In this document: piece after piece, positions 11,569-26,097 of the stretch
How the letters are laid out: each line of letters opens with the position of its first letter
Position numbering within the stretch: position 1 is the first letter of the stretch
Origin: a virus
Virus record (IMG/VR): IMGVR_UViG_3300037071_002895
Location: 1-26,097 of that record
Length of the DNA stretch: 26,097 nucleotides
Strand: one strand, 5' to 3'
Translations under genes and position numbers: made by a program
The notes under the pieces: generated by a model
Seen by the model: the letters and a program-made list of their open reading frames with translations, nothing else
The model's database searches: none
What the model was told of the DNA's origin: nothing

Positions 11569-11922
11569 ATGGCACAGATTAACCTAGCGCTACGGCGGCC
11601 TAATTTTGAGGGTATCGAAGACCCGATTGCCCGTGAAGCGCTGCAGTATTTATATGAAGCAAGTCTAAGCGCTCCGTTCTTAAGATCAAACTTTCAGTTC
11701 TTCACGGTGACATACGACGCGCTTGTAACTGAGCAGCGGCTGTATCATCGGATGGGTTTTGTTCCAAAGGACATCATCCAAACCTCACTCCTTGATGGAG
11801 ACGGTAGTGGGCCTTATACTAGTACTTATCACTATGATCTCTTCACACCAGATTACCTGGTGATTAGCACCACCGGACCGTGCGTGATAAGATTATTTGC
11901 GGGGGCATATCAAGATGTTTAA
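11569..11922 (+). CDS. Small protein of the tail/neck cluster, unknown function
   Basis: A 117-residue protein. Residues 1-35 are helical (PIAREALQYLYEASLS) and the remainder is beta-rich with many Tyr and Phe (YTSTYHYDLFTPDYLVIST). No signal or membrane segment is visible. It starts one base after the nozzle stop codon with GGGGA upstream, and its end overlaps the start of the adaptor gene by 8 nt, so it is translationally coupled to both. A minor neck or tail structural role is inferred only from position. Confidence 0.55.
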   Translation: MAQINLALRRPNFEGIEDPIAREALQYLYEASLSAPFLRSNFQFFTVTYDALVTEQRLYHRMGFVPKDIIQTSLLDGDGSGPYTSTYHYDLFTPDYLVISTTGPCVIRLFAGAYQDV

Positions 11923-12853
11923 GACCTATGGCGATGCACTAAGCTTTGTTGAAAATAAGCTTGATCTGCAAGATGAGATTTTCATTACCAGCGCTGAGCT
12001 CACTCAGTACTTCGAAGAAGCGATTAAGTATTGTGAGGCTGAGATTCATAAGCTCGATATTGAGGATATGTATTTTGAAACCGTAGCCCCTATTGCGCTT
12101 GAGGCTGGCGTTTCAACCTATGCGCTGCCTGAGAATATCTACGCTCAAAAGATCCTTCGTCTTGTTTTTAATGACAATACAAAATTCTATGACGTTCGCC
12201 GCAATACCCGCAAGAACCGCTATGCTGAGCAAAAGCTCGTGCAGCAGTATTCGACTGGCTCTTACTACTCGTATCAGCTCTTTAACAACTCGGTGCTTGT
12301 GGGCCCTACGATTGAGATCTCCCCTGCATCGCAAGACATCACTGCGGTGGTGACGGGCATTACTGCTACCACGACCCTTGGGTCTAAGACGCTTAGCGTC
12401 CTTAGCTCCACCGCTGGCCTTGCGTCTCGTTATTTTGTAACCGGAACCGGCATACCAGATGGTACGTGGATTGAGTCGGTTGATACAGTAAACAGCACGC
12501 TTCGCATGAGCCAAGCGGCTACTGCCACAGGTACTACCATTGCCATTGCGGCAACTGAGCCGCGCATGCTTTGCTACTATATTCGCCGAGCTTTTGTACC
12601 CTCGGTCTTAACTGATTACATCGACTACCCTGAGTTTTGGAACTTCATCACTCAGCATGTGATTGTAGAGTGTCTTAAGAAAGAGCTTGGTAACCCTCGT
12701 ATTGCTGATGAAAAGATCAAGCTCGATGAACTACGTCAGCAGATGATTGAAACGCTCACCGACAAGGTGCCGGATCAAGAAGATGAAATTGAGAAAGACA
12801 TAACCGCCTACGACGACATGGACAACTTCTACTCAGGAGCAGGAGCTTACTAA
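11915..12853 (+). CDS. Head-tail adaptor protein (P22 gp4 / T7 gp11-like) with inserted beta module
   Basis: A 312-residue protein. The helical N-terminus (FKTYGDALSFVENKLDLQDE, then QYFEEAIKYCEAEIHKLD) and the segment YALPENIYAQKILRLVFNDN are typical of podoviral adaptor or tail-tube-A proteins that sit under the portal. Residues about 143-212 appear to be an inserted beta domain (GSKTLSVLSSTAGLASRYFV, then GTGIPDGTWIESVD) of a kind common in fibres and other virion proteins. The adaptor fold resumes at RMLCYYIRRAF and ends in an acidic helix and a flexible tail. ATG 11915 is chosen because GGGGG lies 5-10 nt upstream; a TTG at 11897 is the alternative. It is followed after one base by the next gene. 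Confidence 0.65.
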   Translation: MFKTYGDALSFVENKLDLQDEIFITSAELTQYFEEAIKYCEAEIHKLDIEDMYFETVAPIALEAGVSTYALPENIYAQKILRLVFNDNTKFYDVRRNTRKNRYAEQKLVQQYSTGSYYSYQLFNNSVLVGPTIEISPASQDITAVVTGITATTTLGSKTLSVLSSTAGLASRYFVTGTGIPDGTWIESVDTVNSTLRMSQAATATGTTIAIAATEPRMLCYYIRRAFVPSVLTDYIDYPEFWNFITQHVIVECLKKELGNPRIADEKIKLDELRQQMIETLTDKVPDQEDEIEKDITAYDDMDNFYSGAGAY

Positions 12854-12854
12854 G

Positions 12855-13979
12855 ATGCCAAAACTAGAATCAACCGATATTAACGCTTATCAGGCGCAAC
12901 TTGCAGATCTTCAAAAGAAGTCTAAGGCGTTTAAACCCCAGGTGATGAGCGGGGGCGTTGGAACAATTGGGAATAGCGTTCAGCAAAATCCATACGCTGC
13001 ACAAATTGCTAGCCTTAACAAAAAGATCTCAAGCGCTGCTGGGCTTAATAAAGAACGCGAGCTTATTGAGGCCACCATTGCAGAGCGCCCAGACCGCATT
13101 GACACCACGGCATCAGACGAGTTCCAAAAGATGCGTGAGATGGCATTTGGTGGTGCTGAGAATCCATACTACGCAGCTCAGCGTGCAAAAGCAGGTCTTG
13201 ACCAAGGTTTTGCCATTGATGACCTTTCTGCATCAAGCCTTGGCGCTCAGCAGAACGCGTACTCTCAGCTTGCACAATCAGGCGGTTTGTCGGGTGGCGC
13301 TCGTGAGCGCATTGGCGCAGACTCAATTGCAAGTGCCATGAAGGGCAGACAAGGCCTACGCGCTCAGGGCATGAAGAACCTTGCTGATATTGGTATTGCA
13401 GAAGAGGGCACTCGTGCTACTCAGCAGACTGGCGTGACTGACGCTCTGATGAAAGAGACCGGCGCTCAGAACGCGTACAACACTGATGTTTATAATCAGA
13501 ACAATCAGTTCCGTATGAGCCAGCTTAAATCCGAACAAGAGCGCGCGATTGCCGCGAAGAACGCGCCATCGTGCTTTCATCCCAACACCTTGGTCGCCAT
13601 GGCTAACGGATGCTTTAAGCCCATTAAACTTATTGAAGTTGGCGATGAAACTAGCTGCGGCATTGTTTATGCCAAGACTCAGGCGCTTGCCAGCATGTCC
13701 CAGTGGATGAAGTTTAAGAATATCCTTCTCACCGCAAACCATGCAGTCCTTGAGGACGGCGTTTGGAAGCGTGCTAAGGACGCCACCGGTGCCGTGAAGG
13801 GCGACTCCGCATCGCGGTTCACCTACAGCATTGGAACCGAGAGTCACTGCATTGAGTGCGGCCTGAATAAGGTCATGGTATCTGATATGCACGAGACCAA
13901 TGAGGGCGCATCGCTAAGCGATGAAGATTCACTTAAACTTAAAAACCAAGCTGAGATTCACTATGCAAGCGTATCTTGA
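12855..13979 (+). CDS. Ejection/internal virion protein with C-terminal Hint (hedgehog/intein) domain
   Basis: A 374-residue protein in two parts. Residues 1-238 are Ala/Gln/Gly-rich and helical (NPYAAQIASLNKKISSAAG, then GARERIGADSIASAMKGRQG), the look of podoviral ejection proteins. Residues 240-350 form a Hint-type domain. C240 starts CFHPNTLVAMANGCFKPIKL, followed by G263-D264 (IEVGDE), a block-B-like T293-A-N-H296 (LLTANHAVLEDGVWKR), and a late SHCIECG...VSDMHETNEG segment with H331. There is no terminal His-Asn followed by Cys/Ser/Thr and no downstream extein, so it is not a complete splicing intein. It may self-cleave at or near S239-C240 or form a covalent bond. The 3' end overlaps the next gene by 17 nt. 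Confidence 0.7.
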   Translation: MPKLESTDINAYQAQLADLQKKSKAFKPQVMSGGVGTIGNSVQQNPYAAQIASLNKKISSAAGLNKERELIEATIAERPDRIDTTASDEFQKMREMAFGGAENPYYAAQRAKAGLDQGFAIDDLSASSLGAQQNAYSQLAQSGGLSGGARERIGADSIASAMKGRQGLRAQGMKNLADIGIAEEGTRATQQTGVTDALMKETGAQNAYNTDVYNQNNQFRMSQLKSEQERAIAAKNAPSCFHPNTLVAMANGCFKPIKLIEVGDETSCGIVYAKTQALASMSQWMKFKNILLTANHAVLEDGVWKRAKDATGAVKGDSASRFTYSIGTESHCIECGLNKVMVSDMHETNEGASLSDEDSLKLKNQAEIHYASVS

Positions 13980-14301
13980 ATACCTGTCTGAAAAGAAGGG
14001 TCAAACTCTTGAGATCCTAGAGGGCGGTTTTTACGTTTGGTCACAGATCAACGACGTCTCTGTTTTTGTTCACGAAGTGTATGTTGAAAAACCACTACGT
14101 GGCAGTGGCTTCTTAAAACTGTGGACTGAGCACTTGGTGCAAAAACTCCCCACAGGAGTGGAGTGGCTTTTCTGCGAAGTTGATACCAAAGACAAAGCCC
14201 CAGAGATGAGCCTTGGCGCTCTCTTAAAGTACGGCTGCAAGATCCATGAGATCAAAGATAACCGTTATATTGTCTGTTATTATAAATTGGAGAGGAATTA
14301 A
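13963..14301 (+). CDS. GNAT-like acetyltransferase
   Basis: A 112-residue protein. The central segment HEVYVEKPLRGSGFLKLWTE carries a GNAT motif A pattern (V-x-E-x-x-x-R-G-x-G), in which the Arg-Gly-x-Gly loop binds the acetyl-CoA pyrophosphate. This is followed by an alpha/beta end with YGCKIHEIKDNRYIVCYYKL typical of the last strands. It is shorter than most GNATs (about 140-170), so it is a minimal version. ATG 13963 is preferred; an in-frame ATG at 13921 would extend far into the Hint gene. It overlaps that gene by 17 nt and sits 2 nt before the next ejection gene. The substrate is unknown; a virion or host protein is possible. Confidence 0.65.
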   Translation: MQAYLEYLSEKKGQTLEILEGGFYVWSQINDVSVFVHEVYVEKPLRGSGFLKLWTEHLVQKLPTGVEWLFCEVDTKDKAPEMSLGALLKYGCKIHEIKDNRYIVCYYKLERN

Positions 14302-14303
14302 AA

Positions 14304-14747
14304 ATGGATCCTATTACAATCGGCCTTCTATCATCTGGCGTCGGGTCACTTATCGGCGGCATGGGAGCTGCGGGCAAGGCGAAAGAAGCTGCCCGTCGTG
14401 AGCACATCAACGCACTCCTTGGTGCAGGTGACACGCGGTTCTCTCCATTTGTTCAAGGACAATCTAAAAAGCTTGCAGAGACCGATGCTGGCCCAGGGCT
14501 TCTTGGCGGCGCACTATCTGGCGCAGTAGCTGGTTTTCAACAAGGCCAAAAACTTAAAGGTGCAGATCTTTTCGGAAGTGCCAACCAAGACGTAACCGAT
14601 GCCCTCAACATCAAGACCGACATTGGCGGCATCAACACTGGCAAAAAACCTACACTGTTTGATGCTAATAAGTACGCTGTGAATCCAATGCAGCCACTTA
14701 ATCAAAACCCATACGCATCGCAGTCTTTGTACGCATCTAACTACTAA
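14304..14747 (+). CDS. Internal virion / ejection protein
   Basis: A 147-residue protein. The N-terminus is a Gly/Ser-rich hydrophobic helix (ITIGLLSSGVGSLIGGMGAA) followed by a charged patch (KAKEAARRE). A second Gly/Ala segment lies at about 70-85 (GGALSGAVAGF). The C-terminus is Asn/Pro/Tyr-rich and ends NQNPYASQSLYASNY. Such glycine-zipper start regions occur in phage ejection proteins that enter or cross the host membrane. GGAGAGG at 14289-14295 gives a strong ribosome binding site. It lies between the GNAT and the larger ejection genes. No named family is recognised. Confidence 0.6.
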   Translation: MDPITIGLLSSGVGSLIGGMGAAGKAKEAARREHINALLGAGDTRFSPFVQGQSKKLAETDAGPGLLGGALSGAVAGFQQGQKLKGADLFGSANQDVTDALNIKTDIGGINTGKKPTLFDANKYAVNPMQPLNQNPYASQSLYASNY

Positions 14748-14759
14748 GGGGCATTCATC

Positions 14760-15878
14760 ATGGCAGGATTTTTAGAAAAGAAGTTAACTCAAATAACTGG
14801 TGCTCCAGCTGGAATGCGCCAGCCTGCCGGTTTTGATCAATCTATTCCCATGCAAAAAGACTACGGCGCTATGCTTACGCAAAGCCCTGATGCATTATTT
14901 GCACAGCTCTTGCAACAACAGGATGAAGAGGCTGCTGCTCAACAGGCGGCTCTTGAAGAACAACTTATAAAGCGTCAGGGTGAAGCAAAAGGCAACATAG
15001 ACCTGGCCCCCGCAGCTCAACTTATTGACAGCTCTTTTGGTACCAATATTTCACCTGCTTTTGCAGCAGAGCAGAAAGCTCAAATGGCTCGTGAAGCCGA
15101 CCTTGCCGACCTTGAGTTAAAACTTGCTGCCTCAGGCTCCACTAAGGGAAGCGCTGAAGAAAAACTCATCAACTACATGCAGAACAAAAATAAGCAAGGC
15201 GGCATCGATGATAGGTACGTGCTGAATAAAGGCCTTGGTGTTGCAGACAGCCTACAAACTGATATTGAAAAAAACATCACGAATCCACTCAACGAAGACT
15301 TTGAGGGCATGCAAGGGGTTGAGTCTGGATTTGCTCGTGGAGACTACCAAACAGTGATGAGCAACTTGTCGAACTTCTCTCGCGCAGTTGCTGGCCAAAA
15401 AGGCGTACTAACCGATAAAGACATCCAACTTGTATTTCCAGAATCAGTGCAAACTGGTGTTGCCAAGTTCTTCACCAAGTTCGGCAATGGCGAGATCAAG
15501 GTAGATGCGACAGTACAGCGTAAACTCCTTGAGCTTATTGATGTTGCCAAAAAGAAACTACATGACAAAGCATTAAAGCAAATCGCAACTAAACGTGGTT
15601 TGTATGCAGCACGGCCTGAGTTACGCCAACTTGGAGTGGATACCACCGTCAATGCGCTACTTGATGCCACAGCCAATAGCCCTGCACTGAGTTACTTTGG
15701 TGGTTACAACAAAGACGTGATCAAAAACATCGAAGAAGAAGGCCAACTCACAAAAGACCGCATACAGGGTGAGGCTAAGTCCGAGATTGCAAAACGAGCT
15801 GGTAGTAAAAAGCCAGCGCTAAGTGCATCTGAAGCTGAAGAGTTAAAAGCATTTGAAGCAAAATATGGAGCCAAGTGA
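14760..15878 (+). CDS. Internal virion / ejection protein
   Basis: A 372-residue Ala/Gln/Lys/Glu-rich, largely helical protein. Residues 50-80 form a Gln/Glu-rich coil (AQLLQQQDEEAAAQQAALEE) and residues 270-300 a Lys-rich helix. No signal or membrane segment is seen. Amino acid composition, length and position between the adaptor and a second large helical protein fit a podoviral ejection (pilot) protein such as P22 gp20, but no diagnostic motif is visible. GGGG precedes the ATG, and the stop codon TGA overlaps the next start by one base. Confidence 0.6.
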   Translation: MAGFLEKKLTQITGAPAGMRQPAGFDQSIPMQKDYGAMLTQSPDALFAQLLQQQDEEAAAQQAALEEQLIKRQGEAKGNIDLAPAAQLIDSSFGTNISPAFAAEQKAQMAREADLADLELKLAASGSTKGSAEEKLINYMQNKNKQGGIDDRYVLNKGLGVADSLQTDIEKNITNPLNEDFEGMQGVESGFARGDYQTVMSNLSNFSRAVAGQKGVLTDKDIQLVFPESVQTGVAKFFTKFGNGEIKVDATVQRKLLELIDVAKKKLHDKALKQIATKRGLYAARPELRQLGVDTTVNALLDATANSPALSYFGGYNKDVIKNIEEEGQLTKDRIQGEAKSEIAKRAGSKKPALSASEAEELKAFEAKYGAK

Positions 15879-17509
15879 TGACTGAACAAGAAGAGCGTGA
15901 GCGGTATCGTTATCTTCAGTTAAAGGCTAAGGCCGCTGCAGCGGCTGTTGATGATGAACCTGAGATGGACTTTGCGCCAAAGCCTCAGTACTCCCCAGAA
16001 GAAGAAGCTATGATCTACGCTGGTAACAAAGGGCGCGGTATGGGAGAGCTTGCGCTTGAGGGAACTGGCAAGGCACTTGACTATGCTGGCGGCCTTGTTC
16101 GCACTGGCCTTGCTGGCACATCTAACCTTCTTGGCCCTGATGCATCCATCGTATCAATCGAGGATCTTGAGTCCGCACTTCAAGGTAACGCGCCATCTAC
16201 AAGTGAATATCTAGGACGCGCTGGGTTTGAAGCTGGCCCACTTAGATCTGCCGCTGGGTTTCTAGGCGATATCGCTACAGACCCATTCGGCGGAGCGCAA
16301 CTTGTTAAAGGTGCTTTTAAAGGCGGCACCAAGCTTGCCACTCGTGGTGGTGAAGCGCTTTACCGCAAAGGCTTTAAGGCACTCGACCGTGCGGCTGAAC
16401 TTGCCGGGAAGGGTAAGCAGACTGTGAGCGATGTTGCTAGAAACATCGGCTTTAAAGGTGGTGCTGAAGCGTGGGATGAAACTGCGACTCAGCTCATTAA
16501 CGATCTTGGAACAAGGTACAACAAAATCCTTAAACAAGCTGATGCCATGGGCGCTACTGCCGATACTGCAAAAGCGTTTGACCCCATCATCAGAGATGCT
16601 TACAAAATCATCAACGCACCAAACCTGCCGCCTGCTGCAAAACAACAAGCGCAGAATCTAATCAATCAAATCTCGCCAATTATTGAGAATACTAAGCCAA
16701 TTGCTGAGCGGGTTATAAGACAGGCTCCAGTTCAAGGTAGTCTTCTATCTGCGGTTGATACGCCTATTCTTCAGTCAAAAACAATCGCGGCTGCTGACGA
16801 CTTAATCCCAACACAAATCATTGGTGATCAACCGGGTCTTCTTGTTGAGGGCGCTGGGCAATACAAAACTCCAAAGCAGCAAATCAATCTATTTGAAAAC
16901 ACCACCAAGACCGCAGGTATCCCGCAGCCAAACGTCTATGAAGAGATCGTACAAACTGGCGTGCTACCGAAAGATCAGCTCGATATTTTCCTTCCAGGTG
17001 AACTCACGCCGCAACTAACAGAAACCATCATCCCAGGCCGTGCCGCAATGCCAGTATCGAAGATGACTGAGACAAAACGTGCCATCAATAATTTACGTGG
17101 TAAAGAAGGCTATGAGGATCTACCAGAACTATTTAAAGCCGTGGGCAGTCGCGCAAGACTATCAGAACAAGCTGGTATCAGAGCCGTTGAGCCAAAACTA
17201 GCGCGTGAAGCACGCGACATTAACAAGCAATGGGAAGCACTACTCTCAAGCCGTAAGAAAGCTGTTGGAGAAGCCACTAAGGAAATCAATAAAAACGCAG
17301 TAACTGAAGTTGATGCAATGGCAGGTCTTCTCTCACCATTTGCCTACCTTGGTAAACAAGGCGCTAAGTATCTAAACCTTATGGGCGGGGCTACCTACGG
17401 CGGTAGAGCCCTAGAATCCGCTGCCCCCTTACTGGGCGGCGTACCTGCAGCAGCAACTACCGCAGGCCTGTTACAATATTTAAAATCACAAGGAGCACAC
17501 AATGATTAA
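15878..17509 (+). CDS. Large ejection (pilot) protein
   Basis: A 543-residue protein. A charged helical N-terminus (EERERYRYLQLKAKAAAAAV) leads to a Gly/Ala-rich hydrophobic stretch (about 55-170, for example LDYAGGLVRTGLAGTSNLLG and AAGFLGDIATDPFGGAQLV). A long helical and mixed region follows, then a Gly/Ala-rich end at about 490-535. Such amphipathic hydrophobic regions flanked by helical parts fit a protein that enters the host envelope during DNA delivery, as P22 gp16 does. No lysozyme or transglycosylase motif was found. ATG 15878 (in TGATG with the previous stop) is chosen over GTG 15875 because GGAG lies 7 nt upstream. Confidence 0.6.
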   Translation: MTEQEERERYRYLQLKAKAAAAAVDDEPEMDFAPKPQYSPEEEAMIYAGNKGRGMGELALEGTGKALDYAGGLVRTGLAGTSNLLGPDASIVSIEDLESALQGNAPSTSEYLGRAGFEAGPLRSAAGFLGDIATDPFGGAQLVKGAFKGGTKLATRGGEALYRKGFKALDRAAELAGKGKQTVSDVARNIGFKGGAEAWDETATQLINDLGTRYNKILKQADAMGATADTAKAFDPIIRDAYKIINAPNLPPAAKQQAQNLINQISPIIENTKPIAERVIRQAPVQGSLLSAVDTPILQSKTIAAADDLIPTQIIGDQPGLLVEGAGQYKTPKQQINLFENTTKTAGIPQPNVYEEIVQTGVLPKDQLDIFLPGELTPQLTETIIPGRAAMPVSKMTETKRAINNLRGKEGYEDLPELFKAVGSRARLSEQAGIRAVEPKLAREARDINKQWEALLSSRKKAVGEATKEINKNAVTEVDAMAGLLSPFAYLGKQGAKYLNLMGGATYGGRALESAAPLLGGVPAAATTAGLLQYLKSQGAHND

Positions 17510-18742: not shown

Positions 18743-18943
18743 ATGTCTAACGGTTGGGGTAAGGGAACTGGTGTCGATCAAAAGAACGCTGAAGCTGCGG
18801 CCAAAGGCGCAACTAAAGCCCCAGAGTACGCCACTAAAATCTGGCAAGCAATGAAGGGCGCTCTTGGATCTAAGGCCACTGCCGAAGAGAAGAAAGCTAA
18901 CGACATGAAAAAGCCCGAAGAAGAGCGCGAATCCACGTTCTAA
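18743..18943 (+). CDS. Small Ala/Lys-rich protein on opposite strand, possibly leaderless
   Basis: A 66-residue hydrophilic protein (starting SNGWGKGTGVDQKNAEAAAKG, later EEKKANDMKKPEEERESTF) that exactly fills the gap between two minus-strand genes. Its TAA overlaps the stop of the exonuclease gene by 2 nt. No Shine-Dalgarno sequence lies before the ATG; the bases there are the complement of the divergent gene's AAGGAG. A promoter places transcription start at the ATG. A longer form from ATG 18695 would add a hydrophobic 16-residue segment, but it is antisense to the neighbouring gene and has only a weak ribosome binding site. No family is recognised. Confidence 0.5.
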   Translation: MSNGWGKGTGVDQKNAEAAAKGATKAPEYATKIWQAMKGALGSKATAEEKKANDMKKPEEERESTF

Positions 18944-19734
18944 TCCTTTATAGTAATCCGGTAATGTCCATCAAAACTCATCGTAATCGTCACGCCATCA
19001 CAGACCACGCTTGGCCTTGCAACTGAGGTTAACTCGTGTAGGCGCAAGCGAAGGCTTTCGTCTACGTCATCTAACGCCTTTACTCTTTTGTACTCACGGC
19101 ACAGAGCCATCGCATACTCATCTGTCAGATCGATTCGGTCCTTGGGTGTTAATGCGGGCGGGATATCTTTGACGACATGTTCATTCCACCAATCTAAAAC
19201 GATGGCTAATAATTTTTCTCTGCGTTCAAGATCTACTCTAATCTCAACGACGGCCAACTCTTCTGTCTCTGGCCAAAAGCTTGCAAAATAACAAAGCTTC
19301 GCTTTAGAAACCGCAAGGTTGTACTCGCATTGAAGGCGGTAGTGATCAGGGACTTCACCGCGTTGTGTTGCCTCATGTTTTGCTCTACTTTGAACTTTAC
19401 ATTCAAAAATGGCCTCAAAGTCGTGGTTGTACCCGTCATCATTGCAACGCCAAGGGGAATTAGGCACGACCCAACTTTTAGGTTTGAAATTTTTCCCGGT
19501 CTGCTGTTCAAACAATGCTCTTGCGATGGGCTCATTTGTGATACCTCTTTGTACGTGGGGCAAGCCAGATATATCTGGTGGTGTGACTCTACCAGTTTTC
19601 TCAAGCCATAGGCTATACGCTGTGCGGTATGGGGAGATGCCCATAAGGGGGGCCAAGTCTGAGCCACCTATTCCTTTGCGGCGCTCGGCGGTCCATGTTT
19701 CGTTGGCAGCTTTTTTTTCTTTTATTTTAAACAT
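18940..19734 (-). CDS. YqaJ-type viral recombinase exonuclease (lambda exo-like fold)
   Basis: A 264-residue protein. It opens with the YqaJ signature WTAERRKGIGGSDLAPLMGI (G21-D26), continues with HVQRGITNEPIARALFEQQT (E68), and has the metal-binding core CNDDGYNHDFEAIFECKVQS with D99/D100, E111 and K113 (E-x-K). This is the PD-(D/E)XK nuclease fold of 5'-3' exonucleases that resect DNA ends for recombination with an annealing or RecA-like partner. The start MFKIKEKK is the only ATG before the signature and overlaps the previous HNH gene by 8 nt, with a weak ribosome binding site. It works with the Sak4-like and SSB-like proteins of the same block. Confidence 0.8.
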   Translation of the reverse strand: MFKIKEKKAANETWTAERRKGIGGSDLAPLMGISPYRTAYSLWLEKTGRVTPPDISGLPHVQRGITNEPIARALFEQQTGKNFKPKSWVVPNSPWRCNDDGYNHDFEAIFECKVQSRAKHEATQRGEVPDHYRLQCEYNLAVSKAKLCYFASFWPETEELAVVEIRVDLERREKLLAIVLDWWNEHVVKDIPPALTPKDRIDLTDEYAMALCREYKRVKALDDVDESLRLRLHELTSVARPSVVCDGVTITMSFDGHYRITIKD

Positions 19735-20290
19735 CAGTCAGTCCCAGCGCCTGCTCCAGCGACATCTTTTTGGTGTAAAGCCTAGAGCAAAGGTTGCTAT
19801 AAGTTATGCCAAAGTGTTTGCATAATTCTTTTTTGTTTTTGAATAGAATGCCATTAACAAAAACTTGAGATGGCCTTGGGCTACCATAGGCAGCTATTTG
19901 TTCAACGGTAAAGCCTTGCCCAAGTCTGCCGCGCACTGTTGTAAAAGGGATGTTGAGCTTTTGCGCCAAAAGCCTCACTGTTGATATTTTTTCACCCTTG
20001 TATACAAATACCCTATTGTCGCTTCTGTTGGCGCCTTGCTCAGAAGCTGGTATCCACTTACAGTTTGTTGGCTCGTAATCGCCATTGAAATCTATTCTTT
20101 CAATAGTGAATCCTTCGGGTCGAGGACCCATGTCAGCGTAGAAGTTTTCAAAAACAAGCCAGCGCTCACACAGCTTTATTCCACGTCCGCCATATCTTTC
20201 AAAGCATCTAACATTAGGATCTCTGCACCTCTGCTTGATTGCAGCCCATGTTTTATATTCAGGCATTTTGTATTTTTGAGTTCTACTCAT
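19727..20290 (-). CDS. HNH homing-type endonuclease with tandem DNA-binding repeats
   Basis: A 187-residue protein. Residues 11-90 follow a common phage HNH pattern: YKTWAAIKQRCRDP, then FERYGGRGIKLCERWLVFEN, then GFTIERIDFNGDYEPTNCKW and ASEQGANRS. The C-terminus has two NUMOD1-like helix-turn-helix repeats, about 95-133 (VYKGEKISTVRLLAQKLN) and about 143-182 (VNGILFKNKKELCKHFGITY), that would bind the target DNA. The start overlaps the VRR-NUC stop by 4 nt (ATGA), and the end overlaps the YqaJ start. It is inserted between two nuclease genes of the recombination module, as mobile HNH genes often are. Confidence 0.75.
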   Translation of the reverse strand: MSRTQKYKMPEYKTWAAIKQRCRDPNVRCFERYGGRGIKLCERWLVFENFYADMGPRPEGFTIERIDFNGDYEPTNCKWIPASEQGANRSDNRVFVYKGEKISTVRLLAQKLNIPFTTVRGRLGQGFTVEQIAAYGSPRPSQVFVNGILFKNKKELCKHFGITYSNLCSRLYTKKMSLEQALGLTDV

Positions 20291-20685
20291 ACTCCAAACA
20301 CCTTCTCAATAAGCTCCTCAGCATCATCAACCGACGTAAGCACTTCATAGATGCCGCCTTTGGAGCGAATGGCTTTCATGAATTTGATTTGATCCCCTGA
20401 CTGTTTGCCGCCCGGACGCTTGATCTCCAAGAACAGCACAAGCGTTTCACGTATTGCCATCACATCGGAAATCCCATTAACAGCAAATGGACTGCTCTTA
20501 CGAAAATTACCACTAGTGCTATCAAACATCCCAACGCTATGTACCTTCCAAGCATAACAACGACCCCCATCGTTTAAATACCTTAGTATGTCCCTTTCGA
20601 TGGCTGATTCCTTGCGGTGATCAGTCTTGATCTCCTTGTATTCCACGAGTGGAACCACCCCATCACGTCTAAGCCTTCTTTTCAT
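20287..20685 (-). CDS. VRR-NUC domain nuclease
   Basis: A 132-residue protein. After KESAIERDILRYLNDGG it shows the VRR-NUC/PD-(D/E)XK core NGISDVMAIRETLVLFLEIK, with D74, E87-x-K89, and Q99 in GGKQSGDQIKFMKAIRSKGG. These enzymes cut branched or nicked DNA structures and occur in phage replication blocks. ATG 20685 is preferred. An upstream in-frame ATG at 20724 would add 13 residues and deepen the overlap with the helicase to 56 nt; with 20685 the overlap is 17 nt. Its end overlaps the HNH start by 4 nt, so helicase, nuclease and HNH are translationally linked. Confidence 0.75.
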   Translation of the reverse strand: MKRRLRRDGVVPLVEYKEIKTDHRKESAIERDILRYLNDGGRCYAWKVHSVGMFDSTSGNFRKSSPFAVNGISDVMAIRETLVLFLEIKRPGGKQSGDQIKFMKAIRSKGGIYEVLTSVDDAEELIEKVFGV

Positions 20686-22474
20686 CGAGTCCAAACAATA
20701 CCCCCTGCTCTGCGTGTACCGCAATATCCTCTATCTCGGTCTTATCCTCAGGCTTATCAAACGAGAATGACCGGATGATAAACCTCTTCTCTTGATTCTT
20801 ATAAACGTAAGCCCAGCTTGGCGCCTTGATGATTGATATCCCCTTGCCAGCAGCATCAAGCACATCGCGCACCATTTGAAACGTACAGTGATGGCTACCG
20901 AACATCAGCGGCGCAAAGAGCCTTCGAATACGTGCCTGCATCGCGTTTCGCATCGCCCACTTAGCCTTAGTACTTGGCAGCCATATGCTACTGGCAACTG
21001 TCACCACTGTTCCAAGTAGTGGATCATGTGTATCAAAGACGACCTTGATATGCGGAAGGCGCACCTCGACTCTAAAGTTCTCCACAGGCACCCAATGACT
21101 ATCTATCCAGTGGCTGTCGATGGCGCACTCTTCAGATGAGTATAGTGACTCACCAGTAAACGAGGTGGTGGAAAGGCTAAGTACACTGCTAAATCCAAGC
21201 TCGATCACAGCGCCGCAGTTCTTACATAGCAGCTTGTCACCTTCATACAGAAAGTTAAACAGACCGCAAGCATCGCATGTCACCACGCGGTAGTTCACCG
21301 CATCTTCAACATCCTGGCGCTTCAGTTTGCCATCAACCATCTGTAGCAGGTCTTCTTGCACTACTGGGCGGTCAAGTGAGCCGCAATGGCGAATCGTTTG
21401 GCCGTAATCTAAAACGGTTGCCGATAATTTCCCTGGATGCGTTCTTAGCGCACGGCCAATAGTTTGAATCATCAGTGTGGGTGATCGCATCGGACGCATT
21501 AGCACAACAGCATCAGTGGGTGGATAATCAAACCCCTCCGACAACTTAGTAACAAACACCATATGACGTGCGTCACGCTTTGTGAACATCTCAAGCGCTG
21601 CCACCTCATCACGGCGCACCATCTTGGAATGCACGCACGTTGCGATCTCTTTCATTCCAAGTAGCACATCACGCACACGCTCAGCATGTGTGATGTTGAT
21701 ACAGGCCCATGCCACTTTCTTTCGGCCATCAAGTCTAAGCAGCGCATCCTTAACCTGGCTCATGATCTTATCCCAGTATACTGAGACCATGGCGTTAAGC
21801 GTGCCTTCACTATAGTCACCTTTACCTGGCTCATAGCGGAGCTTTTCGATGCTAAACACCTCAGACTTTGCCCCACTTGCAAGATGCGCTGGCACTAGAT
21901 ATCCATCCCTCGTAAGCTCCTTGATACCAATCGAGAACGTCACATCTGGAAAGAACCTGCCCGTATCACCGCGCCGATTGTAGATATACCTTCCGCCAGT
22001 GAATGGCGTTGCCGTAGCGCCAATGATCCTACACGTAGGGGACGCCTCTTTAATCTTGTTCCACATGGGCATGAACTGCCCATCTTCTTTGTCATTAAGG
22101 CGATGCGCTTCATCAAAGATCACTAGATCAAACTTGCCAACCGCTGTGCGTGCAAGACTTTGCAAAGTGCCAACGACAATCTGGCGATCAATCTCGTAGC
22201 GCTTATGTGTTGCACAATATACGCCAACATCAACAACACCTCTTGCCTTAAGCTCCGCTTCAATCTGTGGCACCAAAGCTTCTTTAGTCACCACGAGTAG
22301 CACCCGCATGTGTGGACTAGTTGATCCAAGGATCTCGGCTATGAGGGTGGTGAAGATACGGGTCTTGCCGCTCCCCGTAGATGCCACAAGGAGGAGCCGC
22401 TCATGGCCTGTGCGCAGGCGTTCGCGCAGCACATCCACTGCACGCCTTTGATAATCTCGAAGCTGTTTACTCAT
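20669..22474 (-). CDS. SF2 DEAH-box helicase, RadD-like, with zinc finger
   Basis: A 601-residue helicase. Walker A ASTGSGKT (31-38), DEAH (121-124), motif III GATATP (152-157) and motif VI QTIGRALR (337-344) are all intact. A four-Cys zinc site at C400/C403 and C417/C420 (CDACG...CKNCG) follows the helicase core, as in RadD (YejH). The C-terminal third is mixed and contains a short IDSHWIDSHW duplication. RadD-type enzymes help recombination-linked repair, so this would remodel strand-exchange intermediates beside Sak4 and YqaJ. The start is ATG 22474 with a weak AAGAG ribosome site; a structured leader lies upstream. The end overlaps the VRR-NUC start. Confidence 0.8.
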   Translation of the reverse strand: MSKQLRDYQRRAVDVLRERLRTGHERLLLVASTGSGKTRIFTTLIAEILGSTSPHMRVLLVVTKEALVPQIEAELKARGVVDVGVYCATHKRYEIDRQIVVGTLQSLARTAVGKFDLVIFDEAHRLNDKEDGQFMPMWNKIKEASPTCRIIGATATPFTGGRYIYNRRGDTGRFFPDVTFSIGIKELTRDGYLVPAHLASGAKSEVFSIEKLRYEPGKGDYSEGTLNAMVSVYWDKIMSQVKDALLRLDGRKKVAWACINITHAERVRDVLLGMKEIATCVHSKMVRRDEVAALEMFTKRDARHMVFVTKLSEGFDYPPTDAVVLMRPMRSPTLMIQTIGRALRTHPGKLSATVLDYGQTIRHCGSLDRPVVQEDLLQMVDGKLKRQDVEDAVNYRVVTCDACGLFNFLYEGDKLLCKNCGAVIELGFSSVLSLSTTSFTGESLYSSEECAIDSHWIDSHWVPVENFRVEVRLPHIKVVFDTHDPLLGTVVTVASSIWLPSTKAKWAMRNAMQARIRRLFAPLMFGSHHCTFQMVRDVLDAAGKGISIIKAPSWAYVYKNQEKRFIIRSFSFDKPEDKTEIEDIAVHAEQGVLFGLDEKKA

Positions 22475-22486
22475 GATGAAAATCTC

Positions 22487-22610
22487 TTAAGGATGGACTC
22501 TATTACCTAGAGCGCTGATGATTTGTAACAATGCATCTTAGACAAAATCCAAAGGGGGAGACCTTTTTTAATTATTGTAAATAGCACCATCTAATAGAGC
22601 CCATTCCTAA
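22487..22610. repeat. Long inverted repeat in the helicase leader
   Basis: Two 19-bp arms (22487-22505 and 22592-22610) match at 16 positions. As minus-strand RNA they make 18 of 19 pairs, two of them G-U. Nested inside are GATG/CATC (22517-22520, 22588-22591), ATTTGTAACAAT/ATTATTGTAAAT (22521-22532, 22571-22582) and a small AAAGG/CCTTT hairpin followed by T residues. The base of the outer stem is about 12 nt before the helicase ATG, so it could touch the ribosome site. Confidence 0.55.
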
Positions 22611-22616
22611 AAGAGC

Positions 22617-22657
22617 ATCACCCACCAGATAGAAACCAAACCTATCCAGCAGGTGAT
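22617..22657 (-). terminator. 16-bp hairpin after the DUF669-like gene
   Basis: On the minus-strand transcript AUCACCUGCUGGAUAG pairs with CUAUCUGGUGGGUGAU across a 9-nt loop with no mismatches, four pairs being G-U. On the plus strand those four would be A-C mismatches, so the fold belongs to minus-strand RNA. It starts 9 nt after the stop codon and is followed by GCUCUUUUAGG, a weak U-run. It may be a terminator, an attenuator or a 3' end protector. Confidence 0.55.
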
Positions 22658-22666
22658 ACAAACTAG

Positions 22667-23140
22667 TTAATAAACAACCGATTGCTGTACGGCTTTTGCC
22701 ACTTCAACCTTGTTCTTAGACTCATTAAAGAACACGTTGTACTGCATGTAGCCAGCATCGTTAAGACCGCGCTGTTTCACACTCACAGATACTGGCAGAC
22801 CTTTGAGGTATGCCGCAAGTTTTTCTGCAGTCTCAATTTCATCCGGCGGATTCTTCACAGCCCCAAGCACGATAGAGGATACAGCATCCGATGCGGATTC
22901 GGCAGTCTTCGGGTGGTCGAGGAGGATCGAGTGACGAAGCTTCTTCACCTCACCGCCACTATCCACAGTGAGCCTTGGCAACACGAGCTCTAGCCAAAGC
23001 ACCAGCATGTTGTGGCCAGCTGCCGTTTTCTTTAACTCCACATCACTGATCTCGCCGTCATACTTGCCATTGGCAAATTCAAACGCTGATCCTTTAGATC
23101 CAGCATTCGCCTTTGCGGTTTTTAAATTAAATACTCCCAT
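22667..23140 (-). CDS. DUF669-like single-stranded DNA binding protein
   Basis: A 157-residue protein. The opening GVFNLKTAKANAG and the segment FANGKYDGEISDVELKKTAA followed by NMLVLWLELVLPR match the layout of DUF669 proteins, small phage OB-like ssDNA-binding proteins (P-x-G-x-Y-x-v-x-I-x-d-v-E-l-K-x-t). The C-terminal half is helical with beta strands (LPVSVSVKQRG) and ends KAVQQSVVY, without the acidic tip of bacterial SSB. ATG 23140 is chosen because AAAGGAGA lies 8 nt before it; a start 17 residues upstream would overlap the Sak4-like gene. It follows that gene after one base, the usual partner arrangement. Confidence 0.65.
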   Translation of the reverse strand: MGVFNLKTAKANAGSKGSAFEFANGKYDGEISDVELKKTAAGHNMLVLWLELVLPRLTVDSGGEVKKLRHSILLDHPKTAESASDAVSSIVLGAVKNPPDEIETAEKLAAYLKGLPVSVSVKQRGLNDAGYMQYNVFFNESKNKVEVAKAVQQSVVY

Positions 23141-23141
23141 T

Positions 23142-23894
23142 TTATTTTTCTCCTTTGTTAAGTGCGGCACCTGCCGCAACATCTTTCCCATACATCTTAG
23201 TTATCAGATTCATGAGGTGCGGATCTTCCACAGCATCAAGATTACCTGACCTATCCTTGGCCTTCGTTTTAGTCGTCGGCTGGCAGATCAGCTTACGCGT
23301 TCCAAGATCATCCACCACAACAAGGCGTAGTAGTTCATCAACCAAGGGTTGAATCGCCGCCTTGATCTGCTTACCTTGAATCATCGGTGCATAATACGAA
23401 GTGCCATCCTTATCATCCACACGATCTTCAATGGCGGTCATGATCACCGTATAGTGCCCAATGTCTCTGAAGAATTTAAGTATGCGCATCAAGGTATCGT
23501 TATACTCGCCCCACATGGCCCATCCCTCTAGTGCATCCTCGCCTTCACCGTTTTCTAAACTGTTCTTCAGGTTCTGCGAGATCTCCGTCAGGGAATCCAC
23601 GAACACGTAATCGTATTTCTTCTGCGCATCTTCTGTTAATAAAAATTCACAGAACGCATCAAACCTGGTGAATCTTGCTTTTTCTGGCAAGAGCTTTCCA
23701 TCATCATCACGACACAGCTCCACAAGATCGAACTTAAAAGCACCAATAGATTTCGTGCCCTGCTCTGCATCTAGCATAAGAGTTTTACCAACGGGGAGCG
23801 TCTTCAAGAGTGATGTCTTACCTGCACCACTCGCGCCGTAGATGAAAATAAAATAAGGTTGTTGATGTGCATTGTTTACTGTCGTGATTTTCAT
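23142..23894 (-). CDS. Sak4-like RecA/AAA-type recombination ATPase
   Basis: A 250-residue protein. Walker A GASGAGKT lies at residues 20-27, and Walker B ends at D100 (KKYDYVFVDSL). MLDAEQGTKSI after the P-loop and the segment HYTVIMTAIEDRVDD are typical of the AAA_24/Sak4 family, short RecA-core proteins that promote annealing or strand exchange in phages with an SSB-like partner. The length matches the family (about 220-260). It is the first gene of the minus-strand operon and is followed directly by the DUF669-like gene. The ATG at 23894 is the only suitable start; the purine run before it (AAAGGGG) is about 15 nt away, so translation may be weak. Confidence 0.75.
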   Translation of the reverse strand: MKITTVNNAHQQPYFIFIYGASGAGKTSLLKTLPVGKTLMLDAEQGTKSIGAFKFDLVELCRDDDGKLLPEKARFTRFDAFCEFLLTEDAQKKYDYVFVDSLTEISQNLKNSLENGEGEDALEGWAMWGEYNDTLMRILKFFRDIGHYTVIMTAIEDRVDDKDGTSYYAPMIQGKQIKAAIQPLVDELLRLVVVDDLGTRKLICQPTTKTKAKDRSGNLDAVEDPHLMNLITKMYGKDVAAGAALNKGEK

Positions 23895-24061
23895 GTCGTG
23901 ATTGATGATCCCCTTTGATGTTTCAAAACTACACTCACATAGAATAAATTAATACAGCGTCATTTATTTTTAACTGACACGGCGCACGCTGATTGACAGG
24001 GTGGTGAGAGATTAGTGTACGCTGACCAATTCAGAACACGCATCATCTTTTGGGGAGCCTA
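23895..24061. promoter_or_regulatory. Divergent regulatory region with ACGCTG repeats
   Basis: This 167-bp gap separates the minus-strand recombination operon from the plus-strand primase gene and must hold both promoters. TTGACA at 23993-23998 is a perfect -35 for the plus strand, but the -10 (TACGCT at 24018-24023, spacer 19) is poor. The heptamer ACGCTGA occurs at 23986-23992 and 24019-24025, and ACGCTGT in reverse at 23954-23960; starts are 32-33 bp apart. No clear minus-strand promoter was found, though the segment 23939-23972 is AT-rich. Confidence 0.45.
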
Positions 24062-26097
24062 ATGTCAGAACGAACGCCATCACAACTTGTATCGCCATTT
24101 CACCTAGTTGCAGAGGAGATGGTCGAGAAGGGCTACAGGCCCATACCAATCCACTACGCCACAAAGAAATCTGCTATAGGAAAATACCAAATATACAAAG
24201 ATCAAGATGTCACTATGGATAATGTAGACAGATGGTGTGAACTGTTTGAAAATACACCACTTAACATCGCCCTTGTGACTGGCGATAGCCTCATTGTTAT
24301 TGATGTGGACTGTGAGGGCATGCCGGATCTCGCCACTGAAATCCTGGCCATGGCACCACCATCACCAATACGACGTGTAGGCAGAAAAGGCGCTTGTTTA
24401 TTATATAAGCCAGATCCAACTATCCCAATGAGGAAAAAAGTAGCCCCGCTATGGGGCGAGGTTCTATCTAATGGTTGTTATATGGTGGTGCCACCATCTA
24501 TCCACGATAAAACCAATAAGCCATACAAGTGGGAAGGCCATCTAGTGGATGCCGCAGAGCTTCCAATTCTCCACAATGACATTCTTGAGACCTTTATTGT
24601 TAAGGCCAACGCCGCCTATCTTGCATACCAAACGGCGCAAGGCAACACAGAGCTTGTGGAGAAACTTAAAGGCGGCCAAACGCTGGGCTTAGCCCCAGGC
24701 GACCAAAACCGAAATGAGTATCTAGTGGGTGTCGCATACGCCATGGCATGCAAAGGGCATGATGCCGACTATATAGCTGAGGAACTGCGCAGAGTCTCCA
24801 CACATGAGATATCAAGTATCAAGGGCGATTACTTTATGAACGATGAAACCCTTGCTGGAACTGATCCAGATGCTGCAGCTCTGACCATGGCCAAGAGAGC
24901 CATTAAAGCTGCCACCACCGATGGGGCAAGGATGGATAGGGAGAAGATGATACGCCTGCCTAAGTCGTATGACTTTACCGACACAAGTATTGATGAAATC
25001 AATATCGAAGCACCACCACCCACCATATACCTAGAATCCCTGCCGCCAATAGACACCCTCACCCCAGCACAAGCTGAGGCCAGGACGCTTACTATCTATA
25101 ACGCCAAAACATACGAGGAGCTAAACGATGCCTTCGCATTCATGGTCCCAGCAGAAGGCCTCATGCGCTACATATACGATGAAGCGGTGGTGGAACATGA
25201 CCCCTCACCTGCCATAGCCCTATCATCTGCCATCGCTCTATGCATGGCGCTTGGCTGTAACAGGATACGTGTCCCCAAGAGCAAGGGTAACGTATATGCT
25301 GGTGGTTTTGTCATGAACATAGCCTATTCAGGGCGAGGCAAGACCAAGGCCCAAAACGCCGTGAACGAGTTCTTAGCCCTCACTGGTGATAAAGGCGTAC
25401 AGCTTATTGGCGATGCCAGTTTACTATCTTCAAACGCCGTCTTTGAGTCCCTAAAAGACAAGTTCCTGCACCGAAAACTAAACTGCTACGACGAGATGGC
25501 TAAGCTATGGACCGATGTAGAGCGTGAATCAGGCGCTCTAATGGGGGCTGATGATATCCTCAACAAAGCCTACTCAGCCATTGGGAACCGCTACAACGGT
25601 GACTCTGCTAAATCAAAAGAGTCCAAAATAGCGGCCATTGAGCAGCCAGGGATCAATATCCTTGGCTCATCTACCCCTGGAGAAATGGCAGCATCACTCC
25701 GTGCCAAGCACTTCAAGAAGGGGTCGCTCTCCCGCTACATGATATTCATCGACCTCAAACAGCCACCACCCACAGACTTTGCCGCATACACCGCTAGCTG
25801 GGAGGAGGTTGGAGATCAGGCAGACCTATATGAGTTTGATAACGGTGGTGTGATAGACGACGCTGATGATAGCGATCCGCTGTTTAGGTTCAATAGACTG
25901 CCAGAGCGCATCCATGACATTGTGGATCGGTTCATCCTTAAGGAGCCAAAAGCTACAGGTACCAACAGGTTTGTAGTCCAAAAGATACCAATGCGGCCTG
26001 GAACTGTTGAGCTCCTTAGGCAAAACAGGCTCGCAATGGATGATATCAAGGAACAATTAACAGAAGCCTCCAAAGGGAAGGGGCACGATAGCCCTGA
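24062..26097 (+). CDS. Primase-polymerase / DUF3987-like helicase fusion (partial at 3' end)
   Basis: An open frame of at least 678 codons runs off the right edge. The N-terminal AEP (Prim-Pol) domain has the metal motif IVIDVDCEG (D81, D83) and the S-x-H motif VPPSIH (S146, H148), with GRKGACLLYKPDP between them. After a linker of about 200 residues, a P-loop AYSGRGKT (421-428, K427) and an acidic Walker B-like CYDEMAKLW (D477, E478) fit DUF3987, a helicase-like domain often fused to phage and plasmid primases. This single protein could prime and unwind for phage replication. GGGGAG lies 4 nt before the ATG. The gene uses ATA, AGG and CTA codons more than the late genes do. Confidence 0.75.
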   Translation, partial: MSERTPSQLVSPFHLVAEEMVEKGYRPIPIHYATKKSAIGKYQIYKDQDVTMDNVDRWCELFENTPLNIALVTGDSLIVIDVDCEGMPDLATEILAMAPPSPIRRVGRKGACLLYKPDPTIPMRKKVAPLWGEVLSNGCYMVVPPSIHDKTNKPYKWEGHLVDAAELPILHNDILETFIVKANAAYLAYQTAQGNTELVEKLKGGQTLGLAPGDQNRNEYLVGVAYAMACKGHDADYIAEELRRVSTHEISSIKGDYFMNDETLAGTDPDAAALTMAKRAIKAATTDGARMDREKMIRLPKSYDFTDTSIDEINIEAPPPTIYLESLPPIDTLTPAQAEARTLTIYNAKTYEELNDAFAFMVPAEGLMRYIYDEAVVEHDPSPAIALSSAIALCMALGCNRIRVPKSKGNVYAGGFVMNIAYSGRGKTKAQNAVNEFLALTGDKGVQLIGDASLLSSNAVFESLKDKFLHRKLNCYDEMAKLWTDVERESGALMGADDILNKAYSAIGNRYNGDSAKSKESKIAAIEQPGINILGSSTPGEMAASLRAKHFKKGSLSRYMIFIDLKQPPPTDFAAYTASWEEVGDQADLYEFDNGGVIDDADDSDPLFRFNRLPERIHDIVDRFILKEPKATGTNRFVVQKIPMRPGTVELLRQNRLAMDDIKEQLTEASKGKGHDSP

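Follow-up and report, generated by a model that had tools for sequence, protein, structure and literature searches.

A phage protein with a C-terminal Hint domain

The C-terminal part of the phage protein P0001 (374 aa; plus strand, positions 12,855–13,979) is a genuine Hint domain that spans residues 240 to about 350 (13,572–13,904), and it belongs to a large and apparently undescribed family of viral C-terminal Hint domains. The window, i.e. the whole stretch of DNA that was analysed, comprises 26,097 nt (positions 1–26,097 of IMG/VR record IMGVR_UViG_3300037071_002895) and belongs to a phage of an uncultured lineage. In P0001, the Hint core is preceded by a helical Ala/Gln-rich part and followed by a tail of about 24 residues (351–374; 13,905–13,976), for which a helix was predicted with low confidence.

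A Hint domain had been proposed at this site from the sequence alone, and independent evidence confirmed its presence. A profile was built from 32 C-terminal Hint domains of other viral contigs, leaving out the window and its relatives, and this profile matched P0001 with 75 bits (E = 4.7e-22). Since 2000 shuffles of the Hint part scored at most 6 bits, chance is excluded as the source of the match; the N-terminal part of P0001 gave no match above the shuffles. When the whole protein was compared with Pfam, the matches to Vint (E = 0.005) and Hint (E = 0.09) were both under their cut-offs, and the domain alone matched Vint with an E-value of 0.0006. The Vint scores of 17–20 bits fell short of the cut-off, which lies at 27, so that simple automated annotation would overlook the Hint domain of P0001. 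Querying GenBank phages and the PDB directly with the window protein or with its Hint domain yielded nothing of use, and the family surfaced only through a degenerate DNA motif scan of IMG/VR.

The structure prediction, which the original prediction had named as a check together with the profile search, also returned a Hint fold. The AlphaFold model of the domain, built on a 24-row alignment, reached a pLDDT of ∼90 in the core. Foldseek matched it with a probability of 1.00 to BIL2 (6y75; 1e-6), Vint (8r2c; 3e-5), DnaB inteins and the BIL domain of C. thermocellum (2lwy), while the match to Hedgehog (1at0) was weaker, also at a probability of 1.00. Among solved structures, the closest in fold was the BIL2 domain from the BUBL1 locus of Tetrahymena. 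The full-length model of P0001 was poor in the N-terminal part (pLDDT 30–50 for residues ∼80–220) and was left unused.

Active-site residues and selection

The residues from which the domain had originally been recognised were all found at the positions given for them. Cys240 (13,572–13,574) represents block A and is the predicted nucleophile, with the predicted scissile bond between Ser239 and Cys240; it is invariant across the family. G263-D264 forms the GD pair, and block B corresponds to T293-A-N-H296 (13,731–13,742), with T293 at 13,731–13,733 and the nearly invariant H296 at 13,740–13,742. The domain has the late conserved acidic segment D344-M-H-E347 (13,884–13,895) and no His-Asn pair plus nucleophile. 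An equivalence of D344 with the last Asn of an intein is putative, as the profile alignment with canonical tandem Hint domains spans only the N-terminal half. This half-length alignment identified no block F in the P0001 Hint; blocks A and B are present.

To avoid circular selection on Hint residues, Hint domains were gathered via a neighbouring GNAT-like acetyltransferase gene. This GNAT-anchored set contained 29 distinct sequences, two of them truncated, in which the Cys was conserved in 27 of 27, the His in 28 of 28 and the late Asp in 29 of 29. The original prediction had made itself dependent on conservation of the Cys in homologues, and on this point it held. The Thr of the TxxH motif was replaced by Ser (25) or Ala (2), so that the first step of the reaction could be weakened in nearly all relatives. 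In a wider set, the Cys was present in 75 of 75 sequences, which is partly due to the design of the search, and the His in 74 of 75. The residue after the late Asp is Met in the window and Tyr in 74 of 75 relatives. One C-terminal Hint domain, at locus L045, is degenerate, with Gln in place of the block B His and Cys in place of the late Asp.

Furthermore, a comparison of the window with the near relative at L001 (88% identity) suggested that purifying selection acts more strongly on the Hint domain than on the N-terminal part of P0001, the dN/dS ratios being 0.04 and 0.11, respectively, which are rough values as dS in the Hint part is near saturation. The window lineage also carries four extra Cys residues (253, 268, 332 and 335; 13,611–13,859), all retained in L001. 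Cys332 and Cys335 form a CxxC motif with a 2-residue insertion, as seen in this lineage, and a metal site or a redox switch is a possible role for the four residues.

A family of viral C-terminal Hint domains

The Hint domain of P0001 had been regarded as a single odd fusion, and this turned out not to be so: many further viral Hint domains belong to the same large family, whose members are attached to many different host proteins. Scanning IMG/VR for the motif CFxPxTxVxMADG yielded 84 stretches, which included ordinary inteins and, as a group of their own, short Hint domains at the extreme protein C-terminus. The window Hint aligns with this short C-terminal group. In a second scan, for which a ten-row alignment served as the query, 255 stretches proved to be related, and the best 80 of them were retained. 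Two main types were distinguished by their late Asp segment, FTDYFE and ADYNGD, the latter reading FADYNGD in full; the window (VSDMHE), L001, L011 and L096 represent looser branches. When 16 records were checked, each contained one C-terminal Hint domain of the family type, and a second match in three of them was a tandem partner. Such tandems, with a canonical Hint domain ending in VVHN directly before a C-terminal FTDYFE-type Hint domain, were seen at L106, L114, L123, L126, L128, L130, L162 and other loci. As a Lys follows the HN pair in these canonical domains, splicing is doubtful there too.

The N-terminal partners of the family Hint domains are mutually unrelated, and Gly/Ser-rich linkers often precede the Hint domain. 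The same module on unrelated proteins, often behind such linkers, is what would be expected of a removable cap. In a T4-type group, the host part has homologues whose annotation reads structural, virion-associated or VrlC. This host part was matched by 688 GenBank phage records, none of which covered 80% of the Hint-including query, and this fits a gain of the Hint domain in uncultured lineages.

Neither the window protein nor members of the two main types, used as queries, had a match in 50,697 GenBank phage records at an E-value of 1e-3, and the family is nearly absent from 85,000 bacterial and archaeal genomes, where two short partial matches were obtained. Hint domains in viruses are not new as such, since a viral structure library contains distant Hint proteins from giant viruses and uncultured Caudovirales, some of them labelled 'Hint domain containing protein'. 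No description of the C-terminal family was found in the open-access literature searched, a scope outside which most subscription papers fall. In cultured phages, most Hint domains known so far are inteins within enzymes, for instance the terminase (PMC3556154). If non-splicing Hint domains, for which GenBank phages yielded no relative, indeed cap probable virion proteins, phage particles would be matured or chemically marked in a new way, and protein engineering could then draw on the family for compact natural cleavage domains.

Overlap with a GNAT-type gene

What is new here is that a small GNAT-type gene starts at, or a little before, the stop of the Hint gene in the FTDYFE subfamily, at L011 and in the window. 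For the FTDYFE type, the next gene encoded a GNAT-like protein of ∼145 aa in 39 of 39 testable loci, and in all of these, as in L011 and the window, the Hint stop overlapped or abutted the GNAT start, usually with an overlap of 11 to 29 nt. For the ADYNGD type, in contrast, an adjoining GNAT gene was present in 0 of 29 loci (Fisher p = 7e-20, a value that is overstated as the rows are not independent). In the window, the GNAT-like gene P0003 (plus strand, 13,963–14,301) starts within the last 17 nt of the Hint gene, and its ortholog at L001 shows an identical 17-nt overlap. P0003 contains the sequence RGSG, corresponding to the R-G-x-G of motif A, and Pfam gave no more than an E-value of 0.1, for the L001 ortholog. 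The arrangement at L011 is as in the window with a different type of GNAT (PF00583, 1e-6), which matches P0003 weakly in a pairwise comparison (E = 6e-4). Where the common 11-nt overlap occurs, an Arg or Lys at position 4 of the GNAT protein encodes the overlapping Hint stop codon.

A scan from the GNAT side detected a Hint domain on 45 of 74 upstream genes, while 29 of 74 loci were Hint-less. The Hint-less upstream gene was mostly another enzyme-like gene with the identical 11-nt overlap (L175, L176, L181 and others). Some phages without a Hint domain, those of Cellulophaga among them, also carry related GNATs in their structural modules. The idea of a Hint-specific GNAT is weakened by these same-family proteins, and the Hint–GNAT pairing may reflect gene order only. 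As judged from gene neighbourhoods, the link is strong within the FTDYFE type, and a functional tie is putative.

Proposed autoprocessing and its alternatives

From the observed fold, residue conservation, selection and gene overlap, we infer that the Hint domain would serve as an autoprocessing module, in which an N-S acyl shift at Ser239-Cys240 is followed by release of the N-terminal part through hydrolysis; this is the reading that we hold, by a modest preference, to be probable. Cys240, assisted by H296, would attack the Ser239 carbonyl to form a thioester, which would then be broken by water or another nucleophile. The virion protein, residues 1–239, would thus be set free, and the Hint domain of ∼15 kDa would be shed before or during particle maturation. 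The freed end could be modified, and the co-translated GNAT protein may act on such ends. Its mode of action would resemble that of type-B bacterial intein-like domains (BIL type B) and that by which Hedgehog processing begins. That P0001 performs cleavage or covalent attachment, as originally suggested, is put forward as a hypothesis, supported by the strict Cys, His and Asp conservation in the set gathered without use of Hint residues and by the purifying selection. A wider version, in which the Hint domain and the overlapping GNAT gene form a mobile, phage-specific C-terminal autoprocessing cassette that cleaves or conjugates virion-protein ends during assembly or entry in many unrelated uncultured phages, is tentative, and we lean against it.

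The same conserved first-step residues would also serve in a transfer reaction, in which an amine or alcohol instead of water resolves the thioester. The virion protein would thereby form a covalent bond with a second virion protein, a lipid or a small molecule, comparable to the cholesterol transfer by Hedgehog. Some end chemistry is suggested by the location on probable virion proteins and by the co-translated GNAT, and the BIL2 domain as nearest fold points in the same direction. However, no lipid- or acceptor-binding region is recognisable, only the short tail follows the core, and no partner was identified; we consider transfer unlikely. We rank two further readings as less likely than cleavage or transfer. 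One holds that the domain is non-catalytic, its fold being kept for binding or assembly while it stays on the virion protein. The frequent Ser or Ala in place of the block B Thr and the loss of the His in L045 would agree with this, but the otherwise strict conservation of Cys and His would not be needed for a purely structural role, and we regard this reading as improbable. The other, to which we give the least credence, takes the domain for the relic of an intein, selfish or in decay, that has relocated to the ends of genes and persists there because it does no harm. Its modular spread across unrelated genes and its tandem occurrence with canonical VVHN-ending Hint domains are in line with such an origin; however, the strong purifying selection, the absence of an endonuclease and the active-site residues kept across many divergent phages speak against it.

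With hydrolytic autoprocessing as the favoured reading, BIL type B is the closest functional class, a likeness drawn from described motifs rather than from a BIL-B profile. BIL-B domains share the intein motifs except the C-terminal one and undergo N-terminal cleavage (PMC7765530, reviewing Amitai 2003). They have in common with the P0001 Hint the fold, the N-terminal Cys, the missing C-terminal intein motif, the expected N-terminal cleavage and the variable host proteins. The P0001 Hint differs in being phage-borne, in its place at the extreme end of a probable virion protein, in its DY/DxxE-type end and in that its family is tied, in one subfamily, to a GNAT gene. BIL type A was excluded, because the conserved C-terminal His-Asn is absent. 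The original prediction had judged splicing unlikely, and this stands: the protein ends in VSDMHETNE...YASVS, with no His-Asn (or Gln/Asp) followed by C/S/T and no C-extein, so that splicing is not expected and a splicing intein was excluded. Class 1 inteins share blocks A and B and the fold, whereas the P0001 Hint lacks the block G His-Asn, the +1 nucleophile, the C-extein and the endonuclease.

Vint (PF14623; 8r2c) was the best, though weak, Pfam match and among the top Foldseek matches, and, like the P0001 Hint, it possesses motifs A and B but lacks J, K and L (PMC2362128). However, Vint is a eukaryotic family and P0001 has no VWA or Vwaint domain; with a score below the PF14623 cut-off and no VWA, membership in Vint was excluded. 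Hedgehog Hog (1at0) is likewise a C-terminal Hint domain whose first step is an N-S shift, but the fold match is weak, as is the match to PF01079, and no sterol-recognition region is visible in P0001. The features of the Hint superfamily, namely the fold, the block A nucleophile and the block B His, are all present.

Host protein and genome context

Residues 1–238 of P0001 (12,855–13,568) are predicted to be helical and, as originally described, are rich in Ala (16%) and Gln (9.7%). They represent an orphan sequence, with no match in PHROG or Pfam to internal or ejection protein families or to any known family, and a virion or ejection protein is probable by position. The window encodes a P22-type portal and, directly upstream of P0001, an SU10-type adaptor (plus strand, 11,897–12,853; PF24175, above cut-off). 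Downstream follow Ala-rich genes; the proteins of 147, 372 and 544 aa encoded there by three genes (plus strand, 14,304–17,509) are probably internal virion proteins, as judged from position and composition, and had no database match above noise. No tape-measure gene was recognised in the window. This arrangement fits a podovirus ejection module, and it is plausible, from gene order, that P0001 is a podoviral ejection-type protein as originally proposed. Close relatives of P0001 were limited to two IMG/VR contigs (87–100% identical), and only these same contigs were found for the whole protein or for its 890-aa neighbour P0005. The portal and the 890-aa virion protein had no relative among GenBank phages. 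Positions 18,940–26,095 hold a replication/recombination block. Its minus strand encodes a RecE-like exonuclease, an HNH endonuclease, a VRR-NUC-like protein, a helicase and a Sak4-like annealing protein, and its plus strand a Prim-Pol primase.
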